DNA of 64,000 bases from Cinnamomum chago. Taxonomy: Eukaryota; Streptophyta; Magnoliopsida; Laurales; Lauraceae. Shown piece after piece: positions 17,801-59,700 of this stretch (position 1 is its first letter; every line of letters starts with the position of its first letter). Made by a program: the position numbers and the translations under genes. The notes under the pieces are model-generated. The model did not search any database and was not told the origin of the DNA. It was given only the letters and a program-made list of their open reading frames with translations. Where the stretch lies: contig CP142451.1 in NCBI GenBank assembly GCA_038049695.1, positions 67,275,501 to 67,339,500 of the forward strand, in the 5' to 3' direction.

Positions 17801-17869
17801 AGAGACATCACCAGGAGAACCAGCATTCTTGGACACCAGCTCGAACCAAGCTAGTTGAATGAAAGCACT

Positions 17870-19520: not shown

Positions 19521-19521
<1 letters not shown>

Positions 19522-19554: not shown

Positions 19555-19556
<2 letters not shown>

Positions 19557-19590
19557 ACATGTAATGAAACGTATCAAAGTCTCCTATACC

Positions 19591-25356: not shown

Positions 25357-25413
25357 GGTCCGATCGATCGTCCTGAAAAGCCTCCCAGTTAAAGACAGTC
25401 CGATCGATCGGAC
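25357..25413. repeat. CGATCG palindromes in LTR C
   Basis: Two copies, at 25357-25373 and 25398-25413. The second is a perfect 16-nt palindrome, GTCCGATCGATCGGAC. Confidence 0.9.
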
Positions 25414-25753
25414 CTGGGCGTGCAGGTCCGGGAAACACTTGATTTTTCCTTCCTTTTTCCTTTCCTTTCCAACACTTAAACAATGACATAGAACTATAAA
25501 CAAGATGACTAAAATACATGTTTCCAAGACAATAATATGAGCTAAAGAGCTCCTCATTTCAAATTTCTCCCTTTCCATTCTTTCCATTCACAACAAATCT
25601 CAAGGTGGAGAAAACTCATTCATGTGAAACCATTTGAAACCTTGACAATATGATGCATACATTTTCCAAGCATGAACAAGAGGGAAATAAACTCATCAAT
25701 AAGCACATTTCGAAATCAATATTAATCATAGTGAACACTTACTTGGATGACCT

Positions 25754-26029
25754 TCAAATGAAGAGAGCTAGCTCAAGGGAGGTCTCTAGGTTGGGAGATT
25801 TCTCCAAAAATGGTATCAATAGGGAGCCATGGTGAAGAGGAAGAAGAAGATGGTCTCCATTTCTTGATTGATGAACTATTGGTATGGCTTGGAGATGAAG
25901 AAGCAAGAAGAAGAAGAGAAGCACAAGGAACCCTAGGTTCAGCTGGTTTGTGCTGGAGCAATGGAGGGTGAAATGAACAATGAAGGGGGTGGGTTCTCTT
26001 ATGTTAACAAAGGAGGTTGGGTCCCACAA
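25754..26029 (-). other. Open frame shared by LTRs C, D and E (C copy)
   Basis: A stop-free stretch of 91 codons in LTR sense, starting WDPT and ending LELALFI, with a hydrophobic Leu/Phe-rich middle. The same frame is open in E (29786-30055, 89 codons) and D (39647-39922, 91 codons). It starts at TTG, not ATG, so translation is doubtful. A splice-donor-like GTAAGT (minus strand, 25737-25742) follows 12 bp after the stop. Confidence 0.3.
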
Positions 26030-26550
26030 CTTAAGGGACTAGTTTGGCTGAAATCATCTAATTCGGTACCTCGGACGAAGTCGACGAAGAAGGAAGAAAT
26101 GATCGTCGAAATATCTAGTTTCCAAAAAGTATATGTTTCGTGGGTTTCGGGAATATCAAGTTTTGGGTACAGATTTGGTGTGCAATGACTGTTTTGCCCT
26201 CCGGGCTGGAAAACTGATTTTCGGAGTTTCGAATGGGTATGGAGTGAATACGAAGGTTGTAGAGAATAACAAAACAAGTCAAATGAGGCTAAAACAAGAA
26301 TTATCGAGAATTTAGAATAACCTCCCAATCACGCGCAAAGTCACTAAAAGAACCCCCAAAGGGCCCCACTAATCACAAGGCCCTCAAAATTCCCCAAAAC
26401 TAGAGAAAACCCATTCTAACTCACAAACTCAACCCAACAAATACTAATCCCACTAAAAGAAACTAATCCACAAATAAAACAACACTAATCCAAGAGATTA
26501 GGGGTCGGGTTCTCACATCTCCCTTTCAAAGTTTTCTTTGGCGCGAGACA

Positions 26551-26562
26551 TTGAGAGGAAAA
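26551..26562 (+). promoter_or_regulatory. H polypurine tract
   Basis: TTGAGAGGAAAA lies immediately before the 3' LTR start TGATGGGC. This is the expected plus-strand primer position. Confidence 0.75.
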
Positions 26563-27068
26563 TGATGGGCTAGGCCCAAATGACTCGGTCCACGATGGCG
26601 GGTCAGGTCAAAGTGACCCAAGTCTGTGATGAGCCCGGGTCTAAATCCACTCATTAAGGGCTGGGTCCAGATCCACTGAATGAAAAAGTCAGCGTGTCGT
26701 TCCATCTACCTGCTTTACCAAGTCGTGCGGAGGAGATCTTACCTGCTCTTCTATTGAGGGCGGTTCGAAAGACTCCAACAGAATGGAGCGTACATCGCTG
26801 GAGAATTGTCCCCATCCGTTAAGGGAAGATTATAAAAAGAGAGTCCTATCAACACTGGAAAGCAAGGAACTCTTATCTACTTTTACACCCTCGTTGTACT
26901 CTTCTGAATTGTAATCTTTACATCGGAGAATAGTAAATCACCAAATTTGAAGTGGACGTAGGTCACACTGACCGAACCACTATAAACCCTCTCTCTCTCC
27001 ATTAATTTTCACATTAATTGCTTTAATCTTGACCGGTGGTGCCCGAAAACTACTTTTTGGCATCATCA
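26563..27068 (+). repeat. H 3' LTR
   Basis: 506 bp, TGATGGGCT...GGCATCATCA, with TATAAAA at 26831-26837. It matches 12719-13226 with about 18-19 base differences and a short CT-run length change. It is followed by AATTT. Confidence 0.93.
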
Positions 27069-27376
27069 AATTTGATACTTTAAAGTCAGGTATTGATAAT
27101 GTGGCATTAGGTTGTGTTTTACTCGGGCAAAATGGAGAAATGGACATGATAGATGAAGCAGATTATGGAAAGGCTTCTTATAGAACCAAAGTACCCAGCC
27201 TGTTAGAACAGCATGTTAATGAAGTTACTGCAATGGAAGATATCACGATGTCTCTTTGTCAGGAGAGGTATGTGTCTACACTTCTACCAAACAGTCCTAT
27301 CACAACTTTAGGAGAGATGCCTCTAATTGACCAAGAAGGATTTCCTAGATCTATGGATGATGCAGATTATGGGAGG
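27069..27376 (+). pseudogene. IDM1-like gene fragment, piece 2
   Basis: Coding-like sequence between H and solo LTR E, beginning with the duplicated AATTT. It reads FDTLKSGIDNVALG, then DEADYGKASYRTKV and DDADYG, words that recur in piece 3 (VNDGKASSD, LKSG). The frame is continuous with piece 1 across H and, allowing for E and its duplication, with piece 3. The last five bases GGAGG are E's target site. It appears to be part of a long acidic N-terminal region of low conservation. Confidence 0.55.
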
Positions 27377-28310
27377 TGTCGCGACCCCGGACCGGAAATC
27401 CGGGATTAGGACTAATGAATAATGATTAATGATGATTATCTACATCAAGAATATACCATTTATTTAATTTCCCACAGGTGTCCGCGGTGAGGATATCACA
27501 ACCATACCTGAATATTTCTTTTAAGTGCGGAAGCATGTAGCAAATCAAATAGACAACTATCTCTAGTCATGCAAGCATTAACATCAAATATCAAAACTGT
27601 ATCAGAATGAGCAATGATCTATAGCATGTTTCCAAAAAATAGTTAAAGTTTATCAAAAGATATTTTAGTTACATTCCCCAAAATTAGAAGCCAACAAAGG
27701 CCAATATGACAAAATAATAACCTAAAAGAATGGTTAATAAGTTCTCCCCAAAATGTTACGCCTCTTGTAGCAATCCGATGTCTACATGACATCGTCAACA
27801 CGCCACTCAACTAAAGGTTGCGGCTCACCTACCGCCTCCTTTGGCTCCTCCTCAAGGAAACCGGCAACGGGACCTGAGTACCAAAGCAAAAGGGTTAGAG
27901 ACGACGGTCTGGCAAGAGAGTGAAAAGATACAACCACAAATAATAGATGAAATATCTCGGAAAGCAAGGAAATCTGTTTAAGCAAGAACTCTCATAAAAT
28001 AGATAAATCATTTGCTAGAAAACGTATAAACAAGATAAAACATATGAGGTAACCAGGGAATCAGGAACTAACAAGATGGCAATCACATAAAGCTAAGTCC
28101 TCTGTCACTAAAGTGACAACAGTATCACGGGATGTTGATCTCAGTCGCACAAGGTGAGGAGATTCAACGCAAATCATATATACAATATAAATATACGGGA
28201 CGGGACCACGGTAGCGAACCGGGTATCGGGATCCAAACTGCAGCTGGCGGGACGGGAGAGGAATTTCCAAGTCGGTGGATCAAACCGACAAGGTATCCAA
28301 GCTTAGTGAT

Positions 28311-28515
28311 CACTACACCAAAAATCGGAAATTGGAACGGAAAAGCGTTCCTAATCCTTCTGTTCCTAATCCGTTAAAGTGTTCCAATTTCCGTTCCAAT
28401 TTGGATTAGGAACGGTTGGTACCAAATTGGAACGGAAATTGGAACACTTTAACGGATTAGGAACAGAAGGATTAGGAACGCTTTTCCGTTCCAATTTCCG
28501 ATTTTTGGTGTAGTG
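28311..28515. mobile_element. 205-bp CACTA-type foldback MITE
   Basis: It starts CACTACACCAAAAATCGG and ends with the reverse complement, TTTTTGGTGTAGTG. The two halves are almost perfect reverse complements over their full length, meeting near 28413. The 3-bp duplication GAT flanks it (28308-28310 and 28516-28518), as expected of CACTA-superfamily transposition. LTR C (near 24530) and LTR D (near 41305, reversed) show the uninterrupted site GTGATGCC or its equivalent. Confidence 0.93.
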
Positions 28516-29210
28516 GATGCCGACTCATAGGTTAAATAACACATCGATACATATGCAAGTAAATCAAGTACAAGTAAATCAATGAACGGGCAAGAATATT
28601 CAAATGCATAACTTTCATTTCATATCGGGCAATACTCTTCGGGACAAGTCAATGTTACTAGTGTAACCATCAAGCTTTCGGGAAAACAGATCTTGTAAAG
28701 TAAATCTTGGAAATGAAGAAATAAAATGAACTATAACAATTCCGGGAAAAATTTTAATTTCAAGATCTATTTAAGTGAATAGGGGTCCCGTATATCAATT
28801 ATAGTCATTATTACTTGGTACTCCTTGAGTTTGAAGACATTCCGGGCTCCTTATGCACTTTTACGCTTTTCAAAACTTTAAATGAGCTTATGGATAGTAC
28901 TAGATGCTATGACAGAAAAATCAAGACTATAAACGGTCCATCCTAAGTATGATGTCAACCCGGAACCATCGAGCAACTTACTCAGTCACCGAAAGGAATA
29001 GAATTCACGATACCCAAGGAAATAGACTTCGCATTTAGGTATGAAGAAGATATCGTGTCGTTCCATCCCGTTCAAGATTGAAATAGATTGAACTTCGATG
29101 CCTCCGAACCAACCGTGAAGAGCATCGGCTCAAGACGTCCTCACATATGGTCAAATGAGTCCAAGGAGGGTAGCCAAGGTCCACAAAAAAAAATAATATC
29201 AAAACCCACT

Positions 29211-29331
29211 CGGTCCGATCGATCGGCCAAATTTCTGTCCCAGATACGGACAGGTCCGATCGATCGGCTCAAAAAGCCTTACAGTTAAAGACAGTCCAAT
29301 CGATCGGCCTGCACGTCCGATCGATCGGACC
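29211..29331. repeat. CGATCG palindromes in LTR E
   Basis: Four copies of a GGTCCGATCGATCGGCC-like word at 29211-29228, 29253-29268, 29294-29309 and 29315-29331. The last includes the 16-nt palindrome GTCCGATCGATCGGAC also found in C. Confidence 0.9.
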
Positions 29332-29785
29332 TGGGCGTGTAGCAGGTCCGGGAACTTGATTTTTTTCCTTTTTGTTTCCTTTCCTTCCAACACATCAACA
29401 ACCACATATAGCTATAAACAAAATGACTTAAACACATGTTTCCAAGACATTAAATGAGGCTATCAAGATGCATAAAGATCATTTATTTCAACCATAAAAG
29501 GAATCAATGAAAACATGAAAATCCATAAATGCTTCACCAAACCATTTGAAACTTAAAAACACTTCATCATTCACTTGCCTCAAATCCAAGCTAGCTGAAA
29601 TCAAGCCTCTATTCACTTCTATAGCTCAAAGCCAAGCTACAATAAAAAAAAACCCCAAAACAACCCTAAAATGGGTTACACAAGGAATGAAAATGAATGA
29701 ACTAACAATAATGCAAATGTAGCTTCCCTAGGGCTAGAAGACTAGAAATCTAGAAGTTGAAGAAGAACACTTACTTGGATGACCT

Positions 29786-30055
29786 TCAAATGAAGAGAGC
29801 TAGCTCAAGGAAGGTCTCTAGGTTGGAAGATTTCTCCAAAAATGATATCAAGATGAAGCTTGCAAGATGAGGAAGAGGTTGATGATCTCCATTTCGAGTT
29901 TGGTGCAAGATTGGTGAGGATTGGAGAAGGAGAAGCAAGAAGAAGAAAGAGTTGCTCACCAAAACCCTAGTTCCCTCTCTTGTGCTGGAAAAATGAAAAT
30001 GGAGAAGGAAGGGAAGGGTCTCCTTTGTTAACAATTGAGAGGTTGGGTCCCACAA
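29786..30055 (-). other. Open frame shared by LTRs C, D and E (E copy)
   Basis: 89 codons, WDPTSQLL...LELALFI, aligned with the C and D copies with length changes in multiples of three. It begins at TTG. GTAAGT follows on the minus strand (29769-29774). Confidence 0.3.
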
Positions 30056-30540
30056 CTTAAGGAACTAATTTGGCTGAAATCATCTCTCTCGGGTCCTCGG
30101 ATGAATTCGACGAAGAAGGAAGAAATGTTCGTCGAAATATCTAGTTTCCAAAAAGTATATGTTTCACGGGTTTCGGAAATATCAAGTTTTGGGTACAGAT
30201 TTGGTGTGAAATGACTGTTTTACCCTCAAGGCTATGAAATCGCGTTTCGGGATCTCAAATGGGGACGGGATCAACATGAAAGTTGTAGGGATCATCAAAA
30301 TGAGTAAAACGGGATTAAAATCATGAATGTGAAAACCTCCGATAAATCCTCAAACATATGCAATGTCATGAAAGGGAACCCCCAAAGGGCCCTACTCACA
30401 CAAAGCAAATCAAAATCCCCAAAACTATATCAAAAGCTATTCCAAACCCAACTTAGTCAAAAACACTAATCAAACTTAGCACTAACACGCAACTTAATTA
30501 GCACTAATCGGGTTCACTCGGGTCGGGGTCTTACTGGAGG

Positions 30541-33500: not shown

Positions 33501-34031
33501 ACTATTGATGAAGTCTCTTTTTGTTGTGCAATTGATGAGTCTGTGCATCCTCAAGCTAACAGAAAATTTTCTAAGATGAAAAAAATCTATATTTCGCAAT
33601 AAATATGGACACAACAAATTGAGTGCATGCCGATTGATGATGATGATCTGTTGATTTCAGCTATCATAGGAAACAAATATTTCAGCTGTAACAGTAAACT
33701 AAAGGGTGCAAGAAATCCCAAAAGTCAAAAGGGTAGTCGCAAATTGCTTGTACAAATTCCTAGGAAAGGTGCAAAGATGGGTGGGAAGCTTTCTATAGGA
33801 ACAAGAATAGTACTGTCGTGGTTGCTTGATGTTGGTGTTTTGTGCGTGAATGATGTGATCCAGTATCAGAACCCAAAGGATGGTGAAGTGGTAAAACATG
33901 GGCGGATAACTCGGGATGGACTGTTCTGTAATTGTTGCAACAGGTTGCTTTCTGTTTCTGAGTTTAAGGTTCATGCAGGTTTCAAGCATCCAAACAACTC
34001 CATCAACAAGAGCAACAAGAAAGTGGTTTAA
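30541..34031 (+). pseudogene. IDM1/ROS4-like gene fragment (TPL-binding domain), piece 3
   Basis: The last 100 residues (33,790-34,005) read TRIVLSWLLDVGVLCVNDVI, QYQNPKDGEVVKHGRITRDG, CNCCNRLLSVSEFKVHAGFK: the TPL-binding (Jas-type, TDBD) domain that precedes the PHD finger and acetyltransferase in plant IDM1/ROS4-like proteins, which link histone acetylation to DNA demethylation. Upstream, 31,680-31,880 (LAYIEKEMQEIKTSL...LLDPFVTAVCIDRRIG) also looks IDM1-like. The N-terminal part contains degenerate repeats of about 110 residues (IVVEEGSEESDILKSG near 30700; LIVEKRSQEYNLLKSG near 31020). In-frame stops at 30961, 32625, 33249 and 33600 and a frame change between about 31500 and 31615 make it a pseudogene. 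No PHD or acetyltransferase part follows. Confidence 0.6.
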
Positions 34032-35690
34032 GTAGATTAATATCATCTAAATAGTGTTGTCATAATATATACAACTTGTACAATGCTTTACTTCCGACCA
34101 AAAGGCCATGCAAGGCCAGCATTTGCACTGCTCGACTATTGCACTGCTCGACTTAGTGGAAATCTCTTTAAAAAAACTCAATTGATGATATGGTCATCTG
34201 AGATGACGATATCATTAATCAATATGGAGGATTGGGCACCAATTTCTAATCACAAGTTAATTTAACTAACTGATGCAAATCTAGATATATTCAAATTCTA
34301 AATGAATCAGAATTTCAAAGGAAAAACATTGCAAAATTTATGATGTTTGAAAGAGTTGACGATATCATGAACTGAGTTGACGATATCGTCAACTCCGAGA
34401 TGACGATATCGTCAGCTGAGTTGACGATATTGTCAACTAGGGTATTTTCGTCAAAATAAAAGGTACGAACAACTCATATGTAGTTTTGTTGTTTTTCTTC
34501 ATAAAACTGTTAAACCAAAATATAATCTTAATTATTTCATAAAAATTCCTATTTTATAACTATATATCTGAAATGTATTATTATACAGGGATACATTATA
34601 TACCTGGGTAGTATAGGTTTATTTGGATTCAAACTCGATCCATTCCACCCAGTCCAATTATCAATTGGACCCAAAATGTGTACTCACAATTCACTCAAAA
34701 TGTGTCTGTGCTCCATGGCATCTCTATTCTCTACTCCCACTTCTGGCCCTTCTTCCAGTAGTGATGTTTCTACCCAAAAATATATATGTTAGCCCCCTTT
34801 TAATCAGGTGTTGAGCAAAATGGTTTTTCCTTTTTCTTTATAGAAAAATAAAAAAGGGTTTCCTTCTCTCCCATTGGAATATCAAAAGGGATCAGTGCCC
34901 CCACCACACAGTCGCCAGCACTTTATTGGAGTTAGCCAATGCATATTCCATGAAAACTACTTACCCTCAATCCCTTATAGGAAAACATGAGTGATGCATC
35001 CATCACTACACAGTTTTACTCCAAATCAACCTTGGGGGCACAAACCGTCCTTCTCAAGAGATTGAGCCCCACAGTCACCTCTCCAAACGGTTTGGCATGT
35101 GTACATTTTATTAATTTACTGCTCTATACTCCTTTCAAAGCAGATAAACAAGCATACATGGAAAGAAATTTCAACAGATAAACAAAAGAAGAGGAAGAGA
35201 TCGAACCTCTTCAATCACGGCTGTTTTGAAGAAGAAATCGAATGAAGACTCCTCCACAAGTAGCAGCCACTAGTCTGAAAACCAGAACCAATTGTAAAGA
35301 AGACCTGAAGAAGATGGGCGCAGATAGTAGAACGAAGTCAAAAGTTAGGACACGTTTGCATGTATGGGAAATAAAAACCCTTGAGATTTAGAAGGATTGC
35401 ATATATATACCTTGGAGGAGATTGGGACGGATTTCTCAATTTCTCTATTGTTTGTAGAGGATCATCGAAATCTTGGACTTTGGTTTGGATTTAGGGTGGA
35501 GAGATAGAAAGAGGGAGTAGAGCGCAAAGAGACAGAGAGGCCAAAGAGACTTCTTCGTTCATAAAAGACTAACAAAGAGGGCAAAGACATAACAGGACAT
35601 ACTTCCGTTTATAAAAGACTCTTAACAAAGGTGGGTGATCGATTAAAAAAATAATAAAATAAAAGGCGGGAGATGGAAATAATTGGAAAA
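34032..35690. other. Interval without recognised gene
   Basis: AT-rich sequence after the gene fragment. Apart from the palindromic minisatellite at 34353-34440 I see no coding domain, terminal repeat or RNA gene. The part from 35150 to 35640 is A/G-rich and could be a leader or 5' flank of a gene on the minus strand, but nothing confirms it. Confidence 0.5.
34353..34440. repeat. GATATC-centred palindromic minisatellite
   Basis: Four imperfect copies of about 22 bp centred on GATATC, with arms GAGTTGACGAT and its reverse complement. The copy at 34374-34395 is a perfect 22-nt palindrome. A single related half-copy lies near 34198. Confidence 0.9.
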
Positions 35691-38987: not shown

Positions 38988-39646
38988 TTAGACTGTGTAC
39001 ATTTTCAGGTACATAGCGTTTCATGGATCGGGGAGCTCTTCCCCTTCTGCATTTACTAGTCTGTATGCATTTCCAGAATATACTTCTTTAATTACACAAG
39101 GGCCTTCCCAATTGGGTCGTAATTTACCTTTGGGATGTGGAAGCTGGGATGGAGTGATGCGTTTTTGTAAGACCCCGATCCGAGTGAACCCGATTAGTGC
39201 TAATTAAGTTGCGTGTTAGTACTAAGCTTGATTAGTGATCTTGACTAAGTTGGGTTTGGAATAGCTTTCGAATTAGTTTTGAGGGATTTTTGATTGCTTG
39301 GTGCTTAGTGGGACCCTTCGGGGGTTTCCTTTCCATGACATTGCATATGATTGAGGTTTATCGGAGATTTCGCATTTATTGTTTTAATCTCGTTTTATCG
39401 GCATTGTTAAGCTCTACAACTTTCATGTTGATCCCGTTCCCGTCTGAGGTCCCGAAACCCGATTTCATAGCCTTGAGGGTAAAACAGTCATTGCACACCA
39501 AATCTGTATCCAAAACTTGATATTCTCGAAACCCGCGAAACATATACTTTTTGGAAACTAGAAATTTCGACGATCATTTCTTCCTTCTTCGTCGAATCCA
39601 TCCGAGGTCCCGAAATAGATGATTTCAGCCAAACAAGCTCCTCTAG

Positions 39647-39922
39647 TTGTGGGACCCAACCCCTCATTTGTTAACAAAGGGAAGCCCATTCTCATTTCCC
39701 ACTCACTCTCCATGTTCCAGCACTAACCAACTGAACCTAGGGTTTCTTGCTTTTCTTTTCTTCTTCTTCTTTCTTCTCCATCTCCAAGCCACACCAATAG
39801 TTCATCAATTAAGCAATGAAGATCACCAACCTTTTCCTCATCTAGCAAGCTCCACTTTGATACCTTTTGTAGAAGAATCCATCAACTTTGAGACTCCCTT
39901 TGAGATAGCTCTCTTCATTTGA
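39647..39922 (+). other. Open frame shared by LTRs C, D and E (D copy)
   Basis: 91 codons, WDPTPHLL...FEIALFI, preceded by TAG and starting at TTG. A donor-like GTAAGT (39934-39939) follows the stop by 12 bp, as in C and E. Confidence 0.3.
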
Positions 39923-40519
39923 AGTTCATCCAAGTAAGTAATCCCCCCCATCTCCTAGATTAGTGTCCCTCTAGCCCTTGAGAAGCTACATTTGCATTAT
40001 TGTAAGTTCTTTCATTCTCATTCTTTGTGTAACCCATTTTAGGGTTTGTTTTGGGGATTTTGTTATAGCTTGGACCTTTGGCTTGGAAGAGTATAGGAGT
40101 TTGATTTCTTGAATTGAAGACACAAGGCAAGTGGATGTTTTGATTTTTATAAGCTTTCAATGATTTTGGAAATTTCCACTCATGCCTATTTATTACATTA
40201 GTTTGAAATAAATGCCCATGATAGAGCTTTGGTAGTGCATTTATGTCTTTTAAGGTGTATTGGTGAATGTCATTTAATTTCTTCTTGCTTATATCAAAGG
40301 TACCCTATTGTGAAATGGTTTCCTTCTTTCTTTAATTTCATTGGATTTGATGTTGATGGATGAGGTGATGGAATGAACCCATATTGGAGATTTGGAGAAG
40401 TGTAGATAGAGGCATTGGAGGAGCTCTTAGCTCAATATTATTACAGGGATTAAGTGGAAGTGGAGAGAATGGTTTTGAGGAGGAGAAGGGCTCAAATCTG
40501 AACTCAGTGGGTGATTCCC

Positions 40520-40873
40520 GCACCTGACGGTCAGCCTGCGGTCACCCGGCGGCTAGCCGCCTGGTGACTGGCGGCTAACTGCCAGCTAGCCGAAATGTCA
40601 CGGTTGCTTTTCCAGAGAGCACACTTCTCCACCTGAAAACTCGGTCAGCTCCACGGTTAGCCAGCGGCTAACCGCCGAACACATCGGCGGTTAACCGCCA
40701 GCTAACCGCACTTGGCGGTCAGCTTTCCAGTAAGCTGCATTTCTGCAGCCCAGCCGCGGTCAGCCAGCGGCGGCTAGCTGCCAGCCCCAGCGGCGGCTAA
40801 CCGCCAGGTAACTGAAATTCCCCAGGTTTCGAAAAGTTCCTCGCTCGAACGAACTCTCCGGTTCGTTCGAGCG
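40520..40873. repeat. Palindrome cluster of LTR D
   Basis: Contains the perfect 14-nt palindromes GGCGGCTAGCCGCC (40548-40561) and GGCGGTTAACCGCC (40686-40699), and about ten imperfect relatives. It ends with a hairpin at 40842-40873 whose 13-bp arms CGCTCGAACGAAC and GTTCGTTCGAGCG are perfect complements. Confidence 0.92.
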
Positions 40874-47199: not shown

Positions 47200-47546
47200 G
47201 TAACACCAAGAGAATTTTTTGCTTCAAAATAAAAGGGAGGGAAGAGGAGAGAAAGTTTTTTTTTTTTTGTTTTGTTTTGTTTTTTGTCTTTTTATTGATG
47301 AAAGGGGAAAGTTTTAATGATGGTTTTTTTATTATGTTATAATTAGGGAAGGTTTCAGTAGGCGGTATATTCAGACCTCAAGTTTAATTTGATTTTCGGA
47401 TTATACTCATAATGACCCTAAACTAAATAGGACACGGGCATCTGATCATTGATTGGATGTTCGTGTCCAAGAATAAAACTCCAGAAAGACCCAAATAAGT
47501 GACAAGACAACACAAGAAGTCCTATCACGATCGCCAGGCTATCGGA
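47200..47546 (-). mobile_element. F leader with primer-binding site
   Basis: Between the gag-like frames and the 5' LTR. On the minus strand TGGCGATCGTGATAGGACTT (47517-47536) begins with TGG ten bases after the LTR end, as a tRNA-primed start site would. The tRNA was not identified. The rest is AT-rich with a T run at 47251-47262 and no gene. Confidence 0.6.
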
Positions 47547-47808
47547 TGTGAATTTTGATCCCCCCGGGGAGGGAAATCGCCATTCATCTATGTGTGCTAT
47601 TTAAATTTTACATCGAAAATGAGGATTCCGACTACCCTCAAAATCGACGGATCACAATTGCCAGCTACGGTAACGGCCGTAACACCGTTCTTTGACAAAA
47701 GCCAAAGAAAAATGGGAGAAAATAAATGGGTGGGTTCTTCCTCTCGTCTAATGTGCTGCCGGCAACACACGACGATTTTTTTGTCACATTAATTTGGGTC
47801 TCTTTGGG
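47547..47808 (-). repeat. F 5' LTR (copy B), inner piece
   Basis: Matches 1003-1260 with about 13 differences. The last five bases TTGGG are the target site of G. The LTR continues at 60703. Confidence 0.85.
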
Positions 47809-47895
47809 TGTGAGGTCCCACCCTTGGTGGGCCCTCTAAGGGCTATTTTATAGGCTAATTAATCTTAATTTATCTTAATTATTGTTTAATTATGT

Positions 47896-47975
47896 TAATC
47901 TTCGCTAATCTTCACTAATCTTTGCTAATTACTACTAATTATTGCTAATCTTTGTTAATCTTGGTTAATTACTGT
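47896..47975. promoter_or_regulatory. Eight 10-bp TAAT repeats in G U3
   Basis: TAAT recurs exactly every 10 bp eight times (TAATCTTCGC, TAATCTTCAC, TAATCTTTGC and so on), about 275 bp upstream of the TATA box. The copy in the 3' LTR is at 56767-56846. The period is close to one helical turn, so all TAAT cores face one side of the DNA. Confidence 0.85.
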
Positions 47976-49523
47976 TTTAATTGGGCTAGTTTGGGGCTAA
48001 TTATATTGACTAGTGAGATTTCCTAAGTTAGTTAGGTTAACTTAGTAGGTTAGTGTTTTTAATTAGTTGGGTGCATGAATTAATCTTAGGCTTAGTTAGT
48101 AGTGTCTAATTAATCAAGTTAATTAGGTTGGGTTAGCTAAAGGTGCTCTCTAGAACCTTCTTTCCTAATGACCCAACTACCCTCAAACCCTAACCCTAAT
48201 CCCATTAAACCCTAGGGCTAAACAAGTCATTAGCTACCCCACTAATCCTATAAAATGTCTCTTAACTCTTGCAAACCTAAAACCCTAAACCTAATCTCAG
48301 CCCCCATTCCCAAGAAAACCTCCAGCCCTCTTCCCAAGAAAACTGCCCCAGCCCATTACTGTTCCTCCCAACTACCTCCATCTCCATTGCAACACTCTTC
48401 TCCTCCTTCATTTCCTCTCATACGTTGGAGAGAGACAACCAGCTACTGTTGCTGGGATTTTGGTGAGAAGCTGCTGCACCCCATCTTCCTTCTCCCTCTC
48501 TTCATTCCTCTCATCCGTGACTCTGCTGGAATTCCACCTGGAAGCTACAGCAGAGCTGCTATTGCTGGAACCACATCATACTGCTGCCTTCTTCCTCTTC
48601 TTCACTTCATATGGAGCAGCCACCCCCCCCTCCATCTTTCCCATTCCACTACCAGCTACTGTTGTGCTGAATTCGAGCTGGGACATCTTCCCAGCAGCAG
48701 CAGCTGCTACCACATCTCCATCTCCCCTGTTGTGCTGGAAAACCCATCTTGAAGCTCTGCTGCTGTCTTCTTCATTTCCAGCTACTGCTACAGCCACTCC
48801 ATCACTTCCCTCATCTCCTTCTCTCCATTTCCCTACTGTTACTCTGCTGAAAGTTTCCCCGGGCTGTGCTGCAACTACTTCTTCTCTGCTGGAATATTTC
48901 CTCTGTGACTGTCTTTCTAGAGGCAGCAGCTACATCATCTTCTTCCTTTTCAATTCCTCACCTGGGAGGCCCAGCTGTTGCTGGAATCTGGTTTAAAGAG
49001 CTGCTGTGTCTTCTTCCCTTTCATTCCTCTCTTCTTTCCATTGCTGGAACTGTGCTGGAGGCTGCTGTTATTATTGGAAACAACTCTTAAGAGCTGCTAC
49101 AACAGCTGTGCTTCATCTTCTCCTCATCTCACAGCTGGAACTTGGATCTCTACTGTTATCTCTCTATTTCTCTCTACAAATCTCTCTCAATTCAGCTAAA
49201 AGGCAAGTGCATCAAACTACTAACTTAGGATATGTGTTTTATTCTGTGATTCCCTTGTTTTCAGTTCTTATTATGTTCAGTTTAGTCTAGATTTCACATG
49301 AGCTTTGTTTTATGTTTTTGGATGGAAAGGTCACTGATGGATGGGGGTTTCCACCCCCCATTTGGAAGATCAGTGGGCCATAAGGTGATGGATGGATGGT
49401 TTTTGTGTTGTTAATTGATTAGAAGTGTTTGGGTGAAGTTTGGAAGAGATTGGAAGTAGTTTGGGTGGAAATGGAGCCAAAACAGAGTGACTGCAGAAAC
49501 TGGGTTTTGTCCCAGTTTCGTGT

Positions 49524-49693
49524 AACCGGTTAACCGGTTGGTTAACCGGCAGTGTAGCCGGTTAACCGGGCTTTGCAGGCCGGTCAACCGGCCACACTGA
49601 AATTGCAGAAATGGCAGCTCCCAGTTATTTCTTCTGCAGGAAGTGCTGCAGTGCAGCCGGTTAACCGGACTATGCAGGCCGGTTAACCGGCCA
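49524..49693. repeat. CCGGTTAACCGG palindrome cluster, G 5' LTR
   Basis: Opens with the perfect 16-nt palindrome AACCGGTTAACCGGTT (49524-49539). It continues with at least five GCCGGTTAACCGG or GGCCGGTCAACCGGCC-type copies. Confidence 0.93.
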
Positions 49694-51835
49694 CACTGAG
49701 ATTTCTTGGAAAACTGGCCCTTAGCCATTTCTTGCACAAATTTCATTTCAAATAGTCGGGTTGACCTGGTCTCGCACCGGTTGACCCGATTCACGCTGTT
49801 TGTGCAGGAAGTGACTGAAAGTTGGTTCTTCAATCAAAACTCAGACTCCTTACACCCAAATGGACTTGATACTTAGGATTTTACTTTAGAAAGTGTTTAA
49901 AGCTGGATCATCAATCTTTCTAAGGTTTCAGAGTATGCGGTCAATCACCTAGGCCTGGTTGTTTGACCGGACACGCTGTAAGCCTTTAGAAACGATATAA
50001 GTTGTCCAGGAAGCCTGATTCAGATTAGTTAGTGCACTCGGTTGATCTTCCCGGCCAGGAAATCCACCGAGCTCACAACACATCAGGTTCACCTGGAAAA
50101 CCCTGATTGTTCCAGTTTTCAACACTTAGGAGATATGATCAGTTGTGGGGCCCATTGACCATCCAAATGAGCATTTGTCAGTGTCCTAAGCCCGAGTCAA
50201 CGGTGTGGCTCAACCTTGACTCGCGGGGACCACTGTTTAGAGTTTTGGTTGATAATCTAAGATGATTCGACCTCCAAGAGTTGTCATAGATGCCATTAAC
50301 TAACTAAGCACCAAATACAATATTTTACGGCATTAATGACATCGTTTAGAGATCGAATTACCGGAGATAGACCCGAACCTAAAGTGGCCCATTTACCTAG
50401 GATTGGACCGTTGCTTTTCCCGTTGATTCTCTGATTGAAGTTTATACTTCACTGTGATTTTACTCTGTCATTCTTAGATCTTTAGATAGTTGTTTACTGT
50501 TAATTAAACATAATTGGAAGACCTGAACCTAGGGTATCTAGAGGTGACCCGATGGTGTGATTTCGGAGATCATTGACCTGTGTCTGTGTCTAGGCGGGCC
50601 CTTAATGGGCCTAAGAGTTGAGATGTGAACCATTTAGCTTGAAGAGGTAGTTTCTATTGGCTGTTAAGCTGTTATGGATTGTAATGGAACTGTTTGTCAG
50701 TAGTAGATGGATTGGTTGCCTCGTTTGGACGGTTTTAGACCAGGCCATGTACTGATGGGCCTTGGTATGGATCCAACGAGTGGGCCTGGATCTTGAATGA
50801 GATCCAGAGTCTGTATTGAGATGTGTGGACCTTATAGAGGTATTGTTAGGACCTTGTTCACGCAAGGCAAAGCCTAGACAGACACAGACCTTAGAGTTAT
50901 TCTCGAGTCGGCATGAACATTCACTCGGTTGATTTAAGCTCAGCCTGTGGACTGATCATCCCCGGTAGGAGCTAGTTGAGTATGGTGAAGCTATCATGAT
51001 GAGCTGTGTGGTTAAGACGGCAAGGTGTCATACCGTGCCGATCTGGAGTGATGAGATGATGAGTTGATGAGTGATATTCGGGGTTAGTTATTCCCTGGTG
51101 AGATTCCCCACCGCGACTGTGTTCAGTATGGGAGGGCCGCGGCATAATATCCCGCGGTATTCCAGCTCGTGTGAATGTGCCACATTGTTTATAGTAGTTT
51201 AGATGTTTCTATTTATACTGAATCTTTATGATTTAAATGCACAACTGCCTAGTTCATTTCCTTGTTACTCATTTAATTTATGCACCTGTCTTTACTTCCT
51301 TCGATATATATGTGCTATGTTAGTAGTATGCTGTATCTTGCAAGATCGTTTAGATCTGACCCATTCTATGGTGCTTAGGCCTTGACCCAGAGATTCCCGA
51401 CGACGCACTAGCCCTCGTGGAGGCACCTGTAGCCAGAGAGTACGCTTGGGGCTCGGCCGACACGGATGTCGAGCCGGAGGGCGAGGAGTACATTCCAGGG
51501 TTCTGAGAGTTTATGTTATTTTGGGTTTTGAGTGACATTTGTAGTGAGAAGGGTAGAATGAAAAATGTATAACTTTAAATTTACATTGAATCATTTTAAT
51601 TAGACCACTGTTCTGCTTTCCTTTAATATACATGATACCTATTGCTTCCGCTCTACTTAAATGTTATGCTTCCGCAAGTTTTAACCATTGAATATTATTC
51701 GGTTCAAAAAGTTTTAAATTGGACCTCACTGCGGCCTACGATCTTGGAAGTTCTCGGATTTTCCGGGAAGTAGCGCGCCAATTTCGGGTGATCGAACGAG
51801 TATATCGGTATCCGGAATTGGGGCGTTACATTTTA

Positions 51836-51851
51836 TGGTATCAGAGCCAGG
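51836..51851 (+). promoter_or_regulatory. G primer-binding site (tRNA-iMet)
   Basis: TGGTATCAGAGCCAGG, five bases after the LTR end, is complementary to the 3' end of plant initiator methionine tRNA. Confidence 0.95.
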
Positions 51852-51997
51852 TTGGTCTCTAGGAAATAAAACACACTAGAAACCATAGGACGTAGTGAGG
51901 ATTCGAGCGATGGGATACGTGTAAGGACGATGGATTGGGTAGAATCAGTGTAGTCTTAGGTCTTGACTTAACTGACGCAAGTTCTTCTTCATGACAG

Positions 51998-52915
51998 ATG
52001 TCTGGAGGCAGTGCACCACGAGAGACGATAGCTATCGACGAGCTGTCCGCCCATGAACGTCGTTTCGAGAGATTTCTCCAGGCCTTCCTTGCTTCTCAGG
52101 AGGCCCAGACCGCAGCTCACCAGAGGCAGACAGAGGATTTTGCGGAGTTTCAGGCGCAGGTCCTGGATGTTATTGATAAGGTGGCTCCGCCAGCCCCCGA
52201 GGATGTGCTGGTTCGGGGGGCAGACCCGAACCTTATCTTTGAGAGGTTCCTCAAAAGGGGACCGCCTGAGTTCACGGGAGCAGACGACCCTATGGTGGCG
52301 GACGACTGGATCGTCCGGATGGAGAAGATCTTCCGAGTCTTCGAGTGCTCGGGGCGCCAGAGAGTGCAGTTAGCGGCTTACATGTTCCGCGGCGTCGCGG
52401 AGGATTGGTGGAGGACCATGCAGAGGCCCTATGAGGAGATTGGGGACGAGGTAGCATGGACTGCCTTCAAGACTGACTTCCTTCGGAAGTTCATCCCCAC
52501 CCATGTCAGAGAGCGTAAGCTCCGGGAGTTCCAGACTCTCGTCCAGGGTAACGTGACAGTCTCGTAGTACGAGGTTCGCTTCACCCAGCTGTCCCGGTTT
52601 GCAGAGGCGCTGCTCACTTCAGAGGCCGAGAGGGTTCGGCGGTTCGTCGACGGTCTCAGCGAGGAGATTCAGATCGCCATGACCTGCATTGAGCTGCCTA
52701 CCTACGAGGAGGCTTTGAGGAGAGCTTTCTGGGCAGAGGAGCATCTCCAGCGGCTAGAGTCCACTTGCCAGCAGAAGCGACTCCGGATCACTCCGATCAG
52801 GCAGCAGCCCATGCCTCTACGACAGCTACAGCCATTTCAGAGGTAGAGGCTGGCCGGGCAGTTCCAGCCTCCGCATCAGCATCGTCAGCAGCAGCAGCCA
52901 CAGCATGGACCCCGA
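51998..52915 (+). mobile_element. G gag region
   Basis: Starts at ATG 51998 (MSGGSAPRETIAIDEL). The gag core reads FLKRGPPEFTGADDP, VRMEKIFRVFECS, AEDWWRTM and FLRKFIPTHVRERK, a typical chromovirus gag. It leads into the CCHC knuckle at the start of the pol entry. It is near-intact, with about one break. Confidence 0.9.
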
Positions 52916-55900
52916 GTGTGCTACGACTGTGGAGAGCCAGGGCATATCTCCAGGTATTGCCCGCTCCGTGGAGGTCAGCCTCAGATGCTTCGACTTCCCG
53001 CACCTCCGGCAGCTCCAGCCCCAGCTCCAGCGGCTCAGCCCGCACGTCAGGCTGCACTTCCACCTCAGCAGCAGCAGTACCGTGCTCATCAGCAGCAGGC
53101 ACGGGGACCTCAGCAGCCTAGAGGGCAGCCCTTTCACCGTGGACGTCACCAGAGGCACCAGGGCCAGCAGCATCATCAGCAGAGACCCCAGGCTGTGGGT
53201 CGAGCTTTTGCACTCACTCATGAGGATGCAGAGGCTGCAGGCGACGTCGTCGAAGGTACCCTTTCTATTTGTGATCACCCTGCTAGAGTATTGTTAGATC
53301 CAGGGGCGACACATTCGTTTGTGTCGTCTGCCTTTACTTTAGTCTTTGGTGGAGTAGGTGAGGCTATGCCCTGCACCTTAGTTGTGTCCACTCCGATGGG
53401 TAGGAGTGTGGTGTGTCAGACTTACCACCCCAGATGCCGAGTGCAGATCGGGGAGTGCATTTTGCTTGCAGATCTGATCGTGCTACCCATGCATGACTTC
53501 GACGTCATTTTGGGGATGGATTGGTTGGCTAGATATCGAGCAGTGATGGATTGCTTCAAGAAGACAGTCAGATTCTCCATCGAAGGTTCAGACGACACGA
53601 TCGAGTTTGTGGGTGAGAGGAGATCACCTAGCACTCGGATGATTTCGGCACTGAAGGCCGAGAGACTGATGAGATCAGGTTGCGAGGGCTACATCGCTTT
53701 TGTCTCAGAGGACAAGGAGTCTAAGAGAGTCGAGAAGATTCCAGTTGTTTGCGAGTTTCCAGATGTATTTCCCGACGAGATCCCGGGATTGCCGCCTATT
53801 CGAGAGATCGACTTCACCATCGAGCTTGCACCAGGCACGGCACCGATTTCGAGAGCTCCCTATCGCATGGCTCCAGCAGAGCTGCGAGAGTTGAAGACTC
53901 AGTTGGAGGAATTACTAGAGAAAGGCTTCATCAGGCCGAGCGTATCGCCATGGGGCGCACCAGTTCTCTTCGTGAAGAAGAAGGATGGATCGATGAGGAT
54001 GTGCATCGACTACCGGCAGTTGAACCAGGCAACAGTAAAGAATAAGTATCCTCTTCCCCGGATCGACGAGCTTTTCGACCAGCTTCAGGGTGCGCAGTTC
54101 TTTTCGAAGATAGACTTGAGATCGGGATACCATCAACTGCGAGTCAGAGATCAGGATGTGCAGAAGACAGCGTTCCGATCCCGCTATGGCCATTATGAGT
54201 TTCTCGTGATGCCGTTCGGGTTGACGAATGCACCAGCAGTGTTCATGTCTTTGATGAACAAGATCTTCGCACCGTACCTCGATAGCTTCACGGTGGTCTT
54301 CATCGACGACGTGTTGGTCTACTCAAGGACCAGAGAGGAGCATGAGCAGCATTTAAGGACGTCTCTCCAGTTGTTGCGCGACAACCAGTTGTACGCGAAG
54401 CTCAGCAAGTGCGAGTTTTGGTTGGAGCAGGTAGTCTTCCTTGGACACATCATCTCCAAGGATGGGCTAGCAGTGGACCCGGCGAAGATAGAGGCAGTGA
54501 CAAACTGGGCCAGACCGAAGAATGCCACAGAGATCAGGAGCTTCCTCGGATTAGCAGGCTACTACCGCAGATTCGTCAAGAGTTTCTCCACGATCTCAGT
54601 ACCGTTGACCAAGCTGACACGGAAGGATGTGCCGTTCGTTTGGTCCGATGCTTGCGAGAACAGCTTTCAAGAGCTGAAAGAGAGATTGACGACAGCACCG
54701 ATCTTGTCTTTACCTTCCGGCAGTGGTGGATTCGTAGTCTTCACCGACGCTTCAGGGACCGGTCTTGGATGTGTTCTGATACAGGAGGGCAAGGTTATTG
54801 CCTATGGATCGCGCCAGCTGAAGGAGCACGAGAAGAAGTACGCCACTCACGACTTGGAGCTTGCAGCAGTCGTTTTTGCCTTGAAGTTGTGGCGGCACTA
54901 TCTCTACGGCGAGAAGTTCGAGGTGCACTCAGATCACCGCAGTTTGCAGTACCTGTTCACGCAGAGCGACCTCAACAACCGGCAGAGGAGGTGGATGGAG
55001 TACATCAAGGACTACGACTTCCCCATCAAATACCATCCTGGTAAGGCGAACGTCGTAGCAGACGCTTTGAGCAGGAAGACCGCCCTCGTCAGTTTCCTAG
55101 CAGCAGAGGGTGTGTGGACCGACGTCTTCAGCAGTTTAGACGTCCAGTTTCAGCCACTCAGCGAGAGAGTGTTGCTTGCCACCATGACAGCGTGGGAACC
55201 AGAGTTGCTGGGCAAGGTCAAGGACAGTCAACGCAACGATCCGAAGCTTGTCAGAGTGATCGAGCAGATTGACCAGAGGCCAGAGTTCAGACTGATTGGA
55301 GGAGTGCTCTACTACCAGGACAGATTGTGCGTGCCAGACATCCAGGAGCTGAAGAACGAGATTCTTGCAGATGCACACCACAGCAGATACTCGATTCACC
55401 CCGGCAGCACCAAGATGTACCAGAACCTGAGGAGCTACTACTGGTGGAACAACATGAAGAAGGAGATAGCTCGTTATGTCTCCAGGTGTTTGACGTGCCA
55501 GCAGATCAAGGTCGAACACCAGAAGCCGCCAGGACTACTTCATCAGCTTGAGATTCCCCAATGGAAGTGGGAGCACATCACCATGGACTTCATCGCAGGA
55601 CTTCCAGCCACCAGGAGACGCCACGACGGCATTTGGGTGATCGTGGATCGGCTGACCAAGTCAGCTCACTTCTTGCCAGTGTCGATGAGAGCAGGACTCG
55701 ACGTCCTTGCTAAGCTGTACGTGGACCGGATTGTCTCGTTGCACGGAGTTCCAGCTTCGATTGTTTCAGACAGAGACCCGAGGTTCACTTCTCATTTCTG
55801 GGAGAGTCTTCAACAGGCTTTGGGCACCAAGTTAAGCTTCAGCACAGCCTATCATCCTCAGACAGACGGCCAGACAGAGCGCACCAACCAGACACTAGAG

Positions 55901-56710
55901 GACATGTTGAGAGCCTGTGTCTTGGATTTCAAGGAGAATTGGGAGGATTCCTTGCCACTTTGTGAGTTCGCCTACAACAACAGCTTCCATGCGAGCATCA
56001 AGATGGCACCGTTCGAGGCTTTGTACGGGAGGAGATGCAAGACCCCAGTTTGCTGGGAAGAAGTTGGTGTCAGGAGCTTCCATGGTCCATCCATTGTCAG
56101 CGACACCAGCGAGAAGGTTCGGCAGATAGTTGAGAACCTGAAGGTCAGCCGCAGCAGACAGAAGAGCTATGCAGACAACCGGCGCAGACCGCTCGAGTTC
56201 GAGAAGGGAGACAGAGTTTTCCTGAAGGTTTCTCCGGCTAGAGGTACCCTGAGGTTTGGTGAGAAGGGTAAGCTAGCGCGGAGATATGTTGGACCCTTCG
56301 AGATCAGATCGAGAGTTGGAGACGTCGCCTACAAGCTTCAGCTACCGCCAGAGCTTTCAGGAGTGCATGACGTGTTCCACGTCTCCATGCTGAAGAAGTA
56401 TGTGGAGGACCCGACCCACATTCTTTATCACGAGCCACTCAACATCCAGCCAGATGCTTCGTACGTCGCCAGGCCAGTCGCGATTATCGACACCAAGGAT
56501 CAGGTGCTCCGAACCCGAACCATTCATTGGGTGAAGGTTCAGTGGGAGCATCACACTCCGGAGGAGGCTACGTGGGAGCTACGCAACCAGGTGGAGAAGG
56601 ACTATCCGCATCTTCTACCCAGGTATGTTCTACTCTTGTTTTACATTTGGGGAGAAATGTTTTTAAAAGGAGGGAATGATGTGAGGTCCCACCCTTGGTG
56701 GGCCCTCTAA
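52916..56710 (+). mobile_element. G zinc knuckle and pol region
   Basis: One long frame. CCHC knuckle [14 protein letters not shown] (52919-52960); aspartic protease [13 protein letters not shown] (about 53290); reverse transcriptase about 53850-54450 with [17 protein letters not shown] and FIDDVLVYS; RNase H about 54730-55075 ([11 protein letters not shown]); integrase zinc finger about 55395-55505 ([14 protein letters not shown]); core about 55570-56080 ([25 protein letters not shown]). The C-terminal part has [10 protein letters not shown] and a chromodomain-like tail ([17 protein letters not shown], about 56525-56580). Chromodomains steer integration to certain chromatin. Codon use is GC-rich compared with the surroundings. 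Confidence 0.95.
56664..56679 (+). promoter_or_regulatory. G polypurine tract
   Basis: AAAAGGAGGGAATGA lies directly before the 3' LTR start TGTGAGG. Confidence 0.85.
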
Positions 56711-59700
56711 GGGCTATTTTATAGGCTAATTAATCTTAATTTATCTTAATTATTGTTTAATTATGTTAATCTTCGCTAATCTTCACTAATCTTTGCTAAT
56801 TACTACTAATTATTGCTAATCTTTATTAATCTTGGTTAATTACTGTTTTAATTGGGCTAGTTTGGGGCTAATTATATTGACTAGTGAGATTTCCTAAGTT
56901 AGTTAGGTTAACTTAGTAGGTTAGTGTTTTTAATTAGTTGGGTGCATGAATTAATCTTAGGCTTAGTTAGTAGTGTCTAATTAATCAAGTTAATTAGGTT
57001 GGGTTAGCTAAATGTGCTCTCTAGAACCTTCTTTCCTAATGACCCAACTACCCTCAAACCCTAACCCTAATCCCATTAAACCCTAGGGCTAAACAAGTCA
57101 TTAGCTACCCCACTAATCCTATAAAATGTCTCTTAACTCTTGCAAACCTAAAACCCTAAACCTAATCTCAGCCCCCATTCCCAAGAAAACCTCCAGCCCT
57201 CTTCCCAAGAAAACTGCCCTAGCCCATTACTGTTCCTCCCAACTACCTCCATCTCCATTGCAACACTCTTCTCCTCCTTCATTTCCTCTCATACGTTGGA
57301 GAGAGACAACCAGCTACTGTTGCTGGGATTTTGGTGAGAAGCTGATCCACCCCATCTTCCTTCTCCCTCTCTTCATTCCTCTCATCCGTGACTCTGCTGG
57401 AATTCCACCTGGAAGCTACAGCAGAGCTGCTATTGCTGGAACCACATCATACTGCTGCCTTTTTCCTCTTCTTCACTTCATATGGAGCAGCCACCCCCCC
57501 CCCTCCATCTTTCCCATTCCACTACCAGCTACTGTTGTGCTGAATTCGAGCTGGGACATCTTCCCAGCAGCAGCAGCTGCTACCACATCTCCATCTCCCC
57601 TGTTGTGCTGGAAAACCCATCTTGAAGCTCTGCTGCTGTCTTCTTCATTTCCAGCTACTGCTACAGCCACTCCATCACTTCCCTCATCTCCTTCTCTCCA
57701 TTTCCCTACTGTTACTCTGCTGAAAGTTTCCCCGGGCTGTGCTGCAACTACTTCTTCTCTGCTGGAATATTTCCTCTGTGACTGTCTTTCTAGAGGCAGC
57801 AGCTACATCATCTTCTTCCTTTTCAATTCCTCACCTGGGAGGCCCAGCTGTTGCTGGAATCTGGTTTAAAGAGCTGCTGTGTCTTCTTCCCTTTCATTCC
57901 TCTCTTCTTTCCATTGCTGGAACTGTGCTGGAGGCTGCTGTTATTATTGGAAACAACTCTTAAGAGCTGCTACAACAGCTGTGCTTCATCTTCTCCTCAT
58001 CTCACAGCTGGAACTTGGATCTCTACTGTTATCTCTCTATTTCTCTCTACAAATCTCTCTCAATTCAGCTAAAAGGCAAGTGCATCAAACTACTAACTTA
58101 GGATATGTGTTTTATTCTGTGATTCCCTTGTTTTCAGTTCTTATTATGTTCAGTTTAGTCTAGATTTCACATGAGCTTTGTTTTATGTTTTTGGATGGAA
58201 AGGTCACTGATGGATGGGGGTTTCCACCCCCCATTTGGAAGATCAGTGGGCCATAAGGTGATGGATGGATGGTTTTTGTGTTGTTAATTGATTAGAAGTG
58301 TTTGGGTGAAGTTTGGAAGAGATTGGAAGTAGTTTGGGTGGAAATGGAGCCAAAACAGAGTGACTGCAGAAACTGGGTTTTGTCCCAGTTTCGTGTAACC
58401 GGTTAACCGGTTGGTTAACCGGCAGTGTAGCCGGTTAACCGGGCTTTGCAGGCCGGTCAACCGGCCACACTGAAATTGCAGAAATGGCAGCTCCCAGTTA
58501 TTTCTTCTGCAGGAAGTGCTGCAGTGCAGCCGGTTAACCGGACTATGCAGGCCGGTTAACCGGCCACACTGAGATTTCTTGGAAAACTGGCCCTTAGCCA
58601 TTTCTTGCACAAATTTCATTTCAAATAGTCGGGTTGACCTGGTCTCGCACCGGTTGACCCGATTCACGCTGTTTGTGCAGGAAGTGACTGAAAGTTGGTT
58701 CTTCAATCAAAACTCAGACTCCTTACACCCAAATGGACTTGATACTTAGGATTTTACTTTAGAAAGTGTTTAAAGCTGGATCATCAATCTTTCTAAGGTT
58801 TCAGAGTATGCGGTCAATCACCTAGGCCTGGTTGTTTGACCGGACACGCTGTAAGCCTTTAGAAACGATATAAGTTGTCCAGGAAGCCTGATTCAGATTA
58901 GTTAGTGCACTCGGTTGATCTTCCCGGCCAGGAAATCCACCGAGCTCACAACACATCAGGTTCACCTGGAAAACCCTGATTGTTCCAGTTTTCAACACTT
59001 AGGAGATATGATCAGTTGTGGGGCCCATTGACCATCCAAATGAGCATTTGTCAGTGTCCTAAGCCCGAGTCAACGGTGTGGCTCAACCTTGACTCGCGGG
59101 GACCACTGTTTAGAGTTTTGGTTGATAATCTAAGATGATTCGACCTCCAAGAGTTGTCATAGATGCCATTAACTAACTAAGCACCAAATACAATATTTTA
59201 CGGCATTAATGACATCGTTTAGAGATCGAATTACCGGAGATAGACCCGAACCTAAAGTGGCCCATTTACCTAGGATTGGACCGTTGCTTTTCCCGTTGAT
59301 TCTCTGATTGAAGTTTATACTTCACTGTGATTTTACTCTGTCATTCTTAGATCTTTAGATAGTTGTTTACTGTTAATTAAACATAATTGGAAGACCTGAA
59401 CCTAGGGTATCTAGAGGTGACCCGATGGTGTGATTTCGGAGATCATTGACCCGTGTCTGTGTCTAGGCGGGCCCTTAATGGGCCTAAGAGTGGAGATGTG
59501 AACCATTTAGCTTGAAGAGGTAGTTTCTATTGGCTGTTAAGCTGTTATGGATTGTAATGGAACTATTTGTCAGTAGTAGATGGATTGGTTGCCTCGTTTG
59601 GACGGTTTTAGACCAGGCCATGTACTGATGGGCCTTGGTATGGATCCAACGAGTGGGCCTGGATCTTGAATGAGATCCAGAGTCTGTATTGAGATGTGTG

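Follow-up and report, generated by a model that had tools for sequence, protein, structure and literature searches.

Palindromic repeated motifs (RM) have been described in the long terminal repeats (LTRs) of Sireviruses, where a TATA box follows them (Bousios et al., 2010, PMC2829016), and within a Ty1/copia set these RM boxes were called Sirevirus-specific (PMC2829016). In maize, Sirevirus LTR palindromes are variable and are hotspots of small RNAs (sRNAs) (PMC5311732, PMC10760457). Arrays of short noncoding motifs that diverge between related elements are also known from VANDAL transposons, which encode the protein that binds them, VANC (PMC5735166, PMC10398659). Here we examined a 64-kb stretch of the Cinnamomum chago genome (contig CP142451.1, positions 67,275,501 to 67,339,500; hereafter the window) that contains three LTRs, solo or partial, belonging to a single Ty3-type family (C, D and E) and a Ty3/gypsy element with two LTRs (G). 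We find that at least two LTR families in this genome carry exchangeable blocks of symmetric words, which look like docking sites for a putative protein. In Tnt1 and other plant LTR retrotransposons, subfamilies have different regulatory blocks in U3 and are otherwise alike; we know of no palindrome grammar in such U3 enhancer turnover.

A first-pass annotation of the window had placed palindrome clusters at a common mid-LTR position, and we found palindromes at the places it named: of the 16 palindromes of the form CG-N6-CG in the window, all but one (15) fall within the clusters of C, D and E or the two of G (Table 1), at 1.1–1.7 kb from the 5′ end of the oriented LTR in C, E and D and at 1.71–1.88 kb in G. 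These cassettes occupy the upper LTR half in E, G and most of D, the last words of D lying at ~1.7 of 3.1 kb, just past the middle. Their 10-bp cores are W1 (CGATCGATCG; C and E), W2 (CGGYTARCCG; D), W3 (CGCTCGAGCG, with CGTTCGAACG; a decayed pair in D), W4 (CGGTCGACCG) and W5 (CGGTTAACCG; G), and G also has a W2 form. The longer words originally proposed as multi-copy fared less well than these cores. The exact 16-mer GTCCGATCGATCGGAC occurs once in C and once in E, and it is the 10-mer core that is repeated (2 and 3 copies), while both 14-mers of D are single-copy. Self-complementarity holds for two of the four CGGYTARCCG words of D, the other two being asymmetric, and the 13-bp-arm hairpin reported in D is present, but as a decayed pair of W3 that is intact in another copy (L055).

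The annotation had also held that no described class fits such arrays; Sirevirus RM boxes do fit (PMC2829016), as do the maize Sirevirus palindromes (PMC5311732, PMC10760457). Like RM boxes, the arrays consist of multi-copy, dyad-symmetric, CG-rich words in the upstream LTR half, with a word that varies between elements; a Vitis word is identical to W4, and the Citrus word CGGCTWRCCG matches W2 (PMC2829016). The symmetry is weak for W2, and 3/63 family copies have asymmetric words only. RM boxes were described from Ty1/copia elements only, with at least 8 copies, a CGG-CCG core in 12/13 and a TATA box shortly after (PMC2829016), whereas here the carriers are Ty3/gypsy, judged by the pol domains of G and the Ty3_capsid match of the D/E gag, an LTR slot holds 1–8 words, the frame is the wider CG-N6-CG, cassettes appear to be exchanged and words are spaced by whole helical turns. 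With the maize palindromes the arrays have in common a palindrome-rich, highly variable LTR regulatory region with strong predicted secondary structure (PMC5311732, PMC10760457); the maize case includes sRNA mapping, and the arrays here were studied as sequence. As with VANC targets, arrays differ between related elements; the word stem "palindrom" occurs 0 times in two VANC texts (PMC5735166, PMC10398659). A limited literature search turned up no earlier account of palindrome arrays in the LTRs of Ty3/gypsy elements. Palindrome arrays as such are thus known from Sireviruses, and what is new here is their occurrence in two Ty3/gypsy families, the cassette exchange, the common grammar and the helical spacing.

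The internal regions identify the carriers. In G, a gag match lies in 51995–52567 and pol in 52847–56710, with TGGTATCAGAGC after the 5′ LTR, which we take to be the primer site. Its pol contains RVP_2, RVT_1, RNaseH, integrase and SH3_Tf2-1 (Pfam), presumably the Ty3 domain order. No gene beyond gag and pol was found in G (open reading frame (ORF) list and Pfam), and since the pol frame enters the 3′ LTR by 31 bases, there is no room for a downstream gene. A D/E-family copy with two LTRs has a 1.1-kb internal piece, the part of this family's internal region that was covered, which encodes a Ty3-type gag (Ty3_capsid match). This gag is 42% identical to that of G over 72 residues, and by this comparison the D/E family and G are two distinct Ty3/gypsy families.

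To the three C/D/E copies of the window we added 60 copies fetched via matches to an E or D stretch outside the cluster, giving 63, and 20 G copies were fetched likewise (24, 36 and 20 taken from the best 40 scored per search, among 7,859, 9,084 and 1,645 candidates in the first searches). The slot held words in 63/63 C/D/E copies (W1 in 28, W2 in 21, W3 in 10 and W2 with W3 in 4) and at least one perfect palindrome in 60/63, the others being L053, L058 and L059; W2 words in the slot were asymmetric in 65/103. G copies carried CGGTTAACCG (18/20) or CGGTCGACCG (2/20). There were 1–8 words per C/D/E slot and 2–5 per fetched G stretch; counted over both LTRs, some elements would come to 8.

As proposed in the annotation, arrays are replaced within alignable LTRs: modules of different type are nearly without homology, and their outer flanks align. 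Blastn of modules from 29 panel copies gave no match between E and D types at E ≤ 1, 11 nt between E and R (the panel of W3-type copies) and 23 nt between D and R, and the C/E and D arrays, being without detectable homology, do not grade into each other by ordinary substitution. A fixed-offset comparison of flanks was uninformative because module lengths differ. Word type must change 9 times on the 5′-flank tree and 8 times on the 3′-flank tree (the latter with six long-branch rows and unsettled bootstrap), the minimum for four states being 3. We then scanned 15 copies, 12 of them chosen mainly for an odd tree place or mixed words, in 100-base windows against the E, D and R panels. A core of ~500–600 bases was without cross-type match in most windows. 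In the sequence bordering it on either side, E and R match, whereas D matches patchily or not at all, so D differs there too; more distal 5′ sequence matches among all three types. A D core was joined to E- or R-like sequence on the 3′ side or on both sides in L020, L047, L049, L052, L055, L058 and L067, and an E core lay behind a D/R-like outer 5′ flank in L045, L046, L062 and L064. By our own reading, 11 of the 15 scanned copies are mosaics. The slot behaves as a cassette, and the mosaics point to exchange by recombination between LTR subfamilies, perhaps in the setting of reverse transcription, with template switching as one possible route. Such recombination would explain the swaps; the hairpin-driven birth of arrays that had also been suggested is so far conjectural. 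Within G, W4-type and W5-type modules were 24–74% identical per 50 columns, with 90–92% in the first 50 columns and 88–100% in the distal 3′ flank, which may reflect either faster divergence or an exchange that is older but still aligns in part; in this family the modules of the two word types have thus diverged and can yet be aligned in places, and the words themselves are one symmetric step apart. A spacer phrase, CCCAGTTA..CAG, was considered as common to E and G and dropped, as these LTRs lie in opposite orientation and the likeness is probably chance.

The words had been called unrelated, yet all fit CG-N6-CG. Across 292,752 fetched bases, 286/560 palindromic 10-mers start with CG, yet they comprise only 7 of the 64 possible CG-N6-CG words. 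One of the seven is seen a single time, and the six that recur form a network joined by single symmetric changes. Since the loci had been fetched for containing these LTRs or words, this vocabulary count is not a genome average. A CGG-N4-CCG core is present in W2, W4 and W5 and absent in CGATCGATCG and CGCTCGAGCG. We then counted pairs over the whole genome (1.06 Gb; the exact word twice, gap 5–30) and found 15,536 for CGGTCGACCG, 11,346 for CGCTCGAGCG, 6,632 for CGATCGATCG, 930 for CGGTTAACCG and 26 for CGTTCGAACG. Controls gave 0 pairs for the composition-matched GCCTGCAGGC, 1 for the CG-frame CGCTTAAGCG and 0 for backward-read patterns. With three mismatches allowed at gap 12, there were 27,014 places versus 42 backward; 10 of these three-mismatch places were examined, only part of which were shown to be LTRs. 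One locus (L097) has CGGTTAACCG in a low-complexity AACCG/ACCGTA array, unlike the LTR clusters and looking like another kind of repeat; the 930 count is therefore mixed.

Compared with composition-matched sequence (each copy shuffled 40 times with dinucleotides kept; palindromes ≥10 bp counted per module), the excess was clear for W1 modules (2.75 observed vs 0.16 shuffled; 23/28 copies exceeding every shuffle), W3 modules (5.90 vs 0.32; 10/10), and the W5 (4.53 vs 0.24; 19/19) and W4 modules (2.00 vs 0.09; 2/2) of G. Modules with both W2 and W3 were intermediate (3.00 vs 0.52; 2/4), and W2 modules showed a weak excess (1.52 vs 0.37; 3/21). Flanks were at or below the shuffled level in 5/6 groups, the exception being the two G W4 copies (1.00 vs 0.72).

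For spacing, we took the first 50 listed places per word, all on C1, and measured their distinct spacers. Centers were 20–22 bp apart for 31/35 distinct spacers of W4, 28/31 of W1 and 31/39 of W3, and after merging spacers that differ by at most 4 letters, for 15/19, 9/12 and 14/20 clusters, respectively. A further 5/20 merged W3 clusters lay at 31–32 bp, and none of the 51 merged W1, W3 and W4 clusters among the listed places lay at 24–29 bp. The spacer sequences themselves are diverse. Neighbor distances in the fetched arrays gather at 20–23, 31–32, 40–43 and 60–61 bp. Distances of two or three helical turns indicate a ligand on double-stranded DNA, and the earlier suggestion of protein-binding sites is favored by this spacing. 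In alignments of 22, 22, 10 and 18 rows (word columns being those with exact words in at least 25% of rows), non-CpG identity to the commonest letter was 0.960–0.998 in words, 0.914–0.957 in spacers and 0.894–0.944 in flanks, words being highest in 4/4 sets, and word CpGs had less TG/CA than flank CpGs in 4/4 sets.

On balance, we think the clusters are probably phased cis-regulatory dyad arrays in a swappable block of the upstream LTR half, read by a dimeric double-stranded DNA-binding protein, most likely of the host. Each word is a 10-bp dyad that such a dimer could read and would bind. Dyads in twos, sometimes threes, would face the same side of the double helix, separated by two or three turns, which would let the bound dimers touch. 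The candidate reader is a host transcription or chromatin factor, since G has no further gene and the words are common to different LTR families and published Ty1/copia elements. A change of array might alter the timing or place of the element's expression, or its silencing. The asymmetric majority of W2 words may be tolerable to protein half-sites and not to strict base pairing.

Several observations weigh against this reading. The proposed reader is so far a putative protein. Word conservation is biased upward, because the columns were defined by exact words, and copies are related, so the counts are not independent; the CpG difference is small in E (0.080 vs 0.096), and in E and D spacer CpGs decay less than word CpGs, so the words are not uniquely protected. 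The spacing, measured on first listed places, all on C1, has off-peak clusters (W4, three at 23 and one at 30 bp; W3, one at 19; W1, 37 and 40, the latter twice), CGGTTAACCG fits less well (12/19 at 20–22; others at 18, 25, 31, 32 (3) and 36; distinct strings only, from 20 of 50 places, not merged), and neighbor distances of 51, 77, 80 and 99 bp do not all fit a 10.5-bp repeat. No TATA box was found within 190 bp downstream of the cluster in eight D/E- and G-family sequences (LTR sense), the nearest being at 199 bp in D, therefore promoter adjacency is not general. Finally, RNA folding is far stronger than in shuffles (z of -8.7 in G, -4.9 in E and -9.2 in D), the outer flanks of pairs are partly complementary 4–9 nt outside (0.43–0.61 vs 0.29–0.33), and complementary runs of at least 6 occur in 4/23 units versus 5.7% in the null, as a hairpin would need.

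The folding results bear on an alternative that we regard as unlikely, in which the palindromes act as hairpins in RNA or single-stranded DNA, LTR transcripts feed small interfering RNA (siRNA) or element RNA biology, and an array swap is an escape from sRNAs. It would account for the very strong folding and for the partly complementary outer arms around some pairs (e.g. CAGTGT...ACACTG), and maize Sirevirus LTR palindromes offer a precedent as sRNA hotspots (PMC5311732, PMC10760457). Hairpins do not, however, need spacings of 20–22 and 31–32 bp with 0/51 merged clusters at 24–29 bp; in addition, asymmetry prevails among W2 words, there is little complementarity inside the spacers (0.19–0.36), and isolated words (37) lose dyad symmetry beyond ~5 nt. 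The clusters may still have an RNA role, perhaps as the price of symmetric protein sites. Rfam gave 0 matches at the gathering threshold in 23000–61000.

Anti-silencing arrays of the VANC kind, in which an element-encoded protein binds the motifs, removes methylation and diverges along with them, are improbable here. Noncoding motif arrays of VANDAL transposons do differ between related elements (PMC5735166), and the Retand-like element that hosts C has an antisense ORF with a Transposase_28 domain, a probable DNA binder (PMC11963269). VANDAL elements encode their binder (PMC5735166, PMC10398659), whereas G has gag and pol only by Pfam and the ORF list, with no room for a further gene downstream, and the Retand-like element is without a CG-frame palindrome outside the nested C. 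Very doubtful, too, is the idea of a functionless by-product of hairpin-prone replication or repair and template switching that spreads with the elements: arrays appear to move by recombination, and reverse transcription is prone to switching, but only 6/64 CG-frame words recur in the fetched loci, in one network of one-step neighbors, the whole-turn spacing persists despite diverse spacers, and an identical word stands in a Vitis Ty1/copia element (PMC2829016). Chance or base composition has a negligible prospect of explaining the arrays, for although clusters are locally CpG-rich and the W2 excess is weak, the shuffles refute it for W1, W3, W4 and W5 and the genome-wide control pairs contradict it as well.

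Building on the reading of the arrays as sites for a dimeric protein, we tentatively propose that the small, closed CG-N6-CG vocabulary, joined by single symmetric changes and set at whole turns, could serve as an address code used across LTR families and read by paralogs of one host DNA-binding family, in which a single array swap by recombination would redirect the element to a different paralog. By published words, this vocabulary would span both superfamilies and several eudicots (PMC2829016). If so, the swap would serve to change cell type or to evade silencing. The exact pairs, more than 34,000 over five words and mostly phased in the listed samples, suggest a strong putative reader. With a vocabulary of six words, looking for it would take only a small experiment, and the natural mosaics already provide promoter swaps for asking how retrotransposons change their expression program. 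Limited literature searches gave nothing usable on LBD factors and, by literal motif, no title of apparent relevance among the matches listed.

The TATA scan covered 17 sequences (L097 left out), and two of nine word-pair loci (L092 and L095) had a TATA box by a stricter match, 36–37 bp from where the last word starts. In L090, L091, L092 and L095, clusters of CGGTCGACCG adjoin CCAACGGCTA (the full TCCAACGGCTA in L090–L092), followed by TATAAA. We take CCAACGGCTA and TCCAACGGCTA to resemble the consensus of the plant M-phase MSA element. MSA (MYB3R) elements as a general feature were rejected: perfect matches to the consensus occur in 6 loci (9 in 291,651 bp), those of L090–L092 in clusters, and none in the window.

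Table 1. Cassettes, LTRs and elements of the window (positions from its first base).
Feature	Positions	Strand	Description
C cassette	25358-25413	-	CGATCGATCG at 25361 and 25401, 40 bp apart
E-type cassette	29213-29330	-	CGATCGATCG at 29216, 29257, 29318; one decayed copy near 29297
D-type cassette	40539-40873	+	CGGYTARCCG at 40550, 40665, 40688, 40794; decayed W3 pair (13-bp-arm hairpin) at 40842-40873
G 5′ LTR cassette	49519-49692	+	CGGTTAACCG at 49527, 49559, 49658, 49680; CGGTCAACCG at 49581
G 3′ LTR cassette	58392-58565	+	words as in 5′ LTR, at 58400, 58432, 58454, 58531, 58553
LTR C	24118-26517	-	older partial LTR, same family as D and E, inside the Retand-like element; lower boundary not fixed
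LTR E	27377-30534	-	solo LTR, same family as C and D; GGAGG flanks on both sides, first LTR bases changed
LTR D	39166-42295	+	solo LTR, TGTAAGACCCC...GTCGCGACA; 5-bp duplication GTTTT on both sides
Element G	47809-60702	+	Ty3/gypsy; LTRs 47809-51830 and 56680-60702, 99.6% identical; target site duplication TTGGG
Retand-like element	12719-27068	+	LTRs of 508 bp (12719-13226; 26563-27068); target site duplication AATTT; gag, reverse transcriptase, integrase
Antisense ORF	21053-21943	-	in the Retand-like element, after pol and before the 3′ LTR; Transposase_28 (TRP28) domain

The Retand-like element lies outside the palindrome system, with zero CG-frame palindromes in the window scan except within the nested C. 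We rejected C as an LTR of this element, which has its own LTRs. A Transposase_28 ORF at that place is typical of Retand elements (PMC11963269), and the stem "palindrom" appears in the Retand paper in the reference list only. Within LTR E, a foldback of 205 bp, ~96% self-complementary, lies at 28311–28515 and is probably a miniature inverted-repeat transposable element (MITE). Two copies of a 21–22-bp palindrome of the GAGTTGACGATATCGTCAACTC type lie at 34353–34438, outside any called LTR. An outer repeat pair, probably LTRs (998–3192, and 47542–47805 with 60703–62943), encloses most of the window, with G sitting in the right-hand copy and a 28-bp tandem repeat around GGCCGATGGGCCG at 1556–1655. 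Elsewhere in the genome, G pol matches are regularly spaced: six on C2 (G000 C2:78923967-78968503) follow one another every 8,608 bases exactly, and C10, C9, C4 and C3 have pairs. This pattern resembles tandem LTR-internal-LTR arrays.

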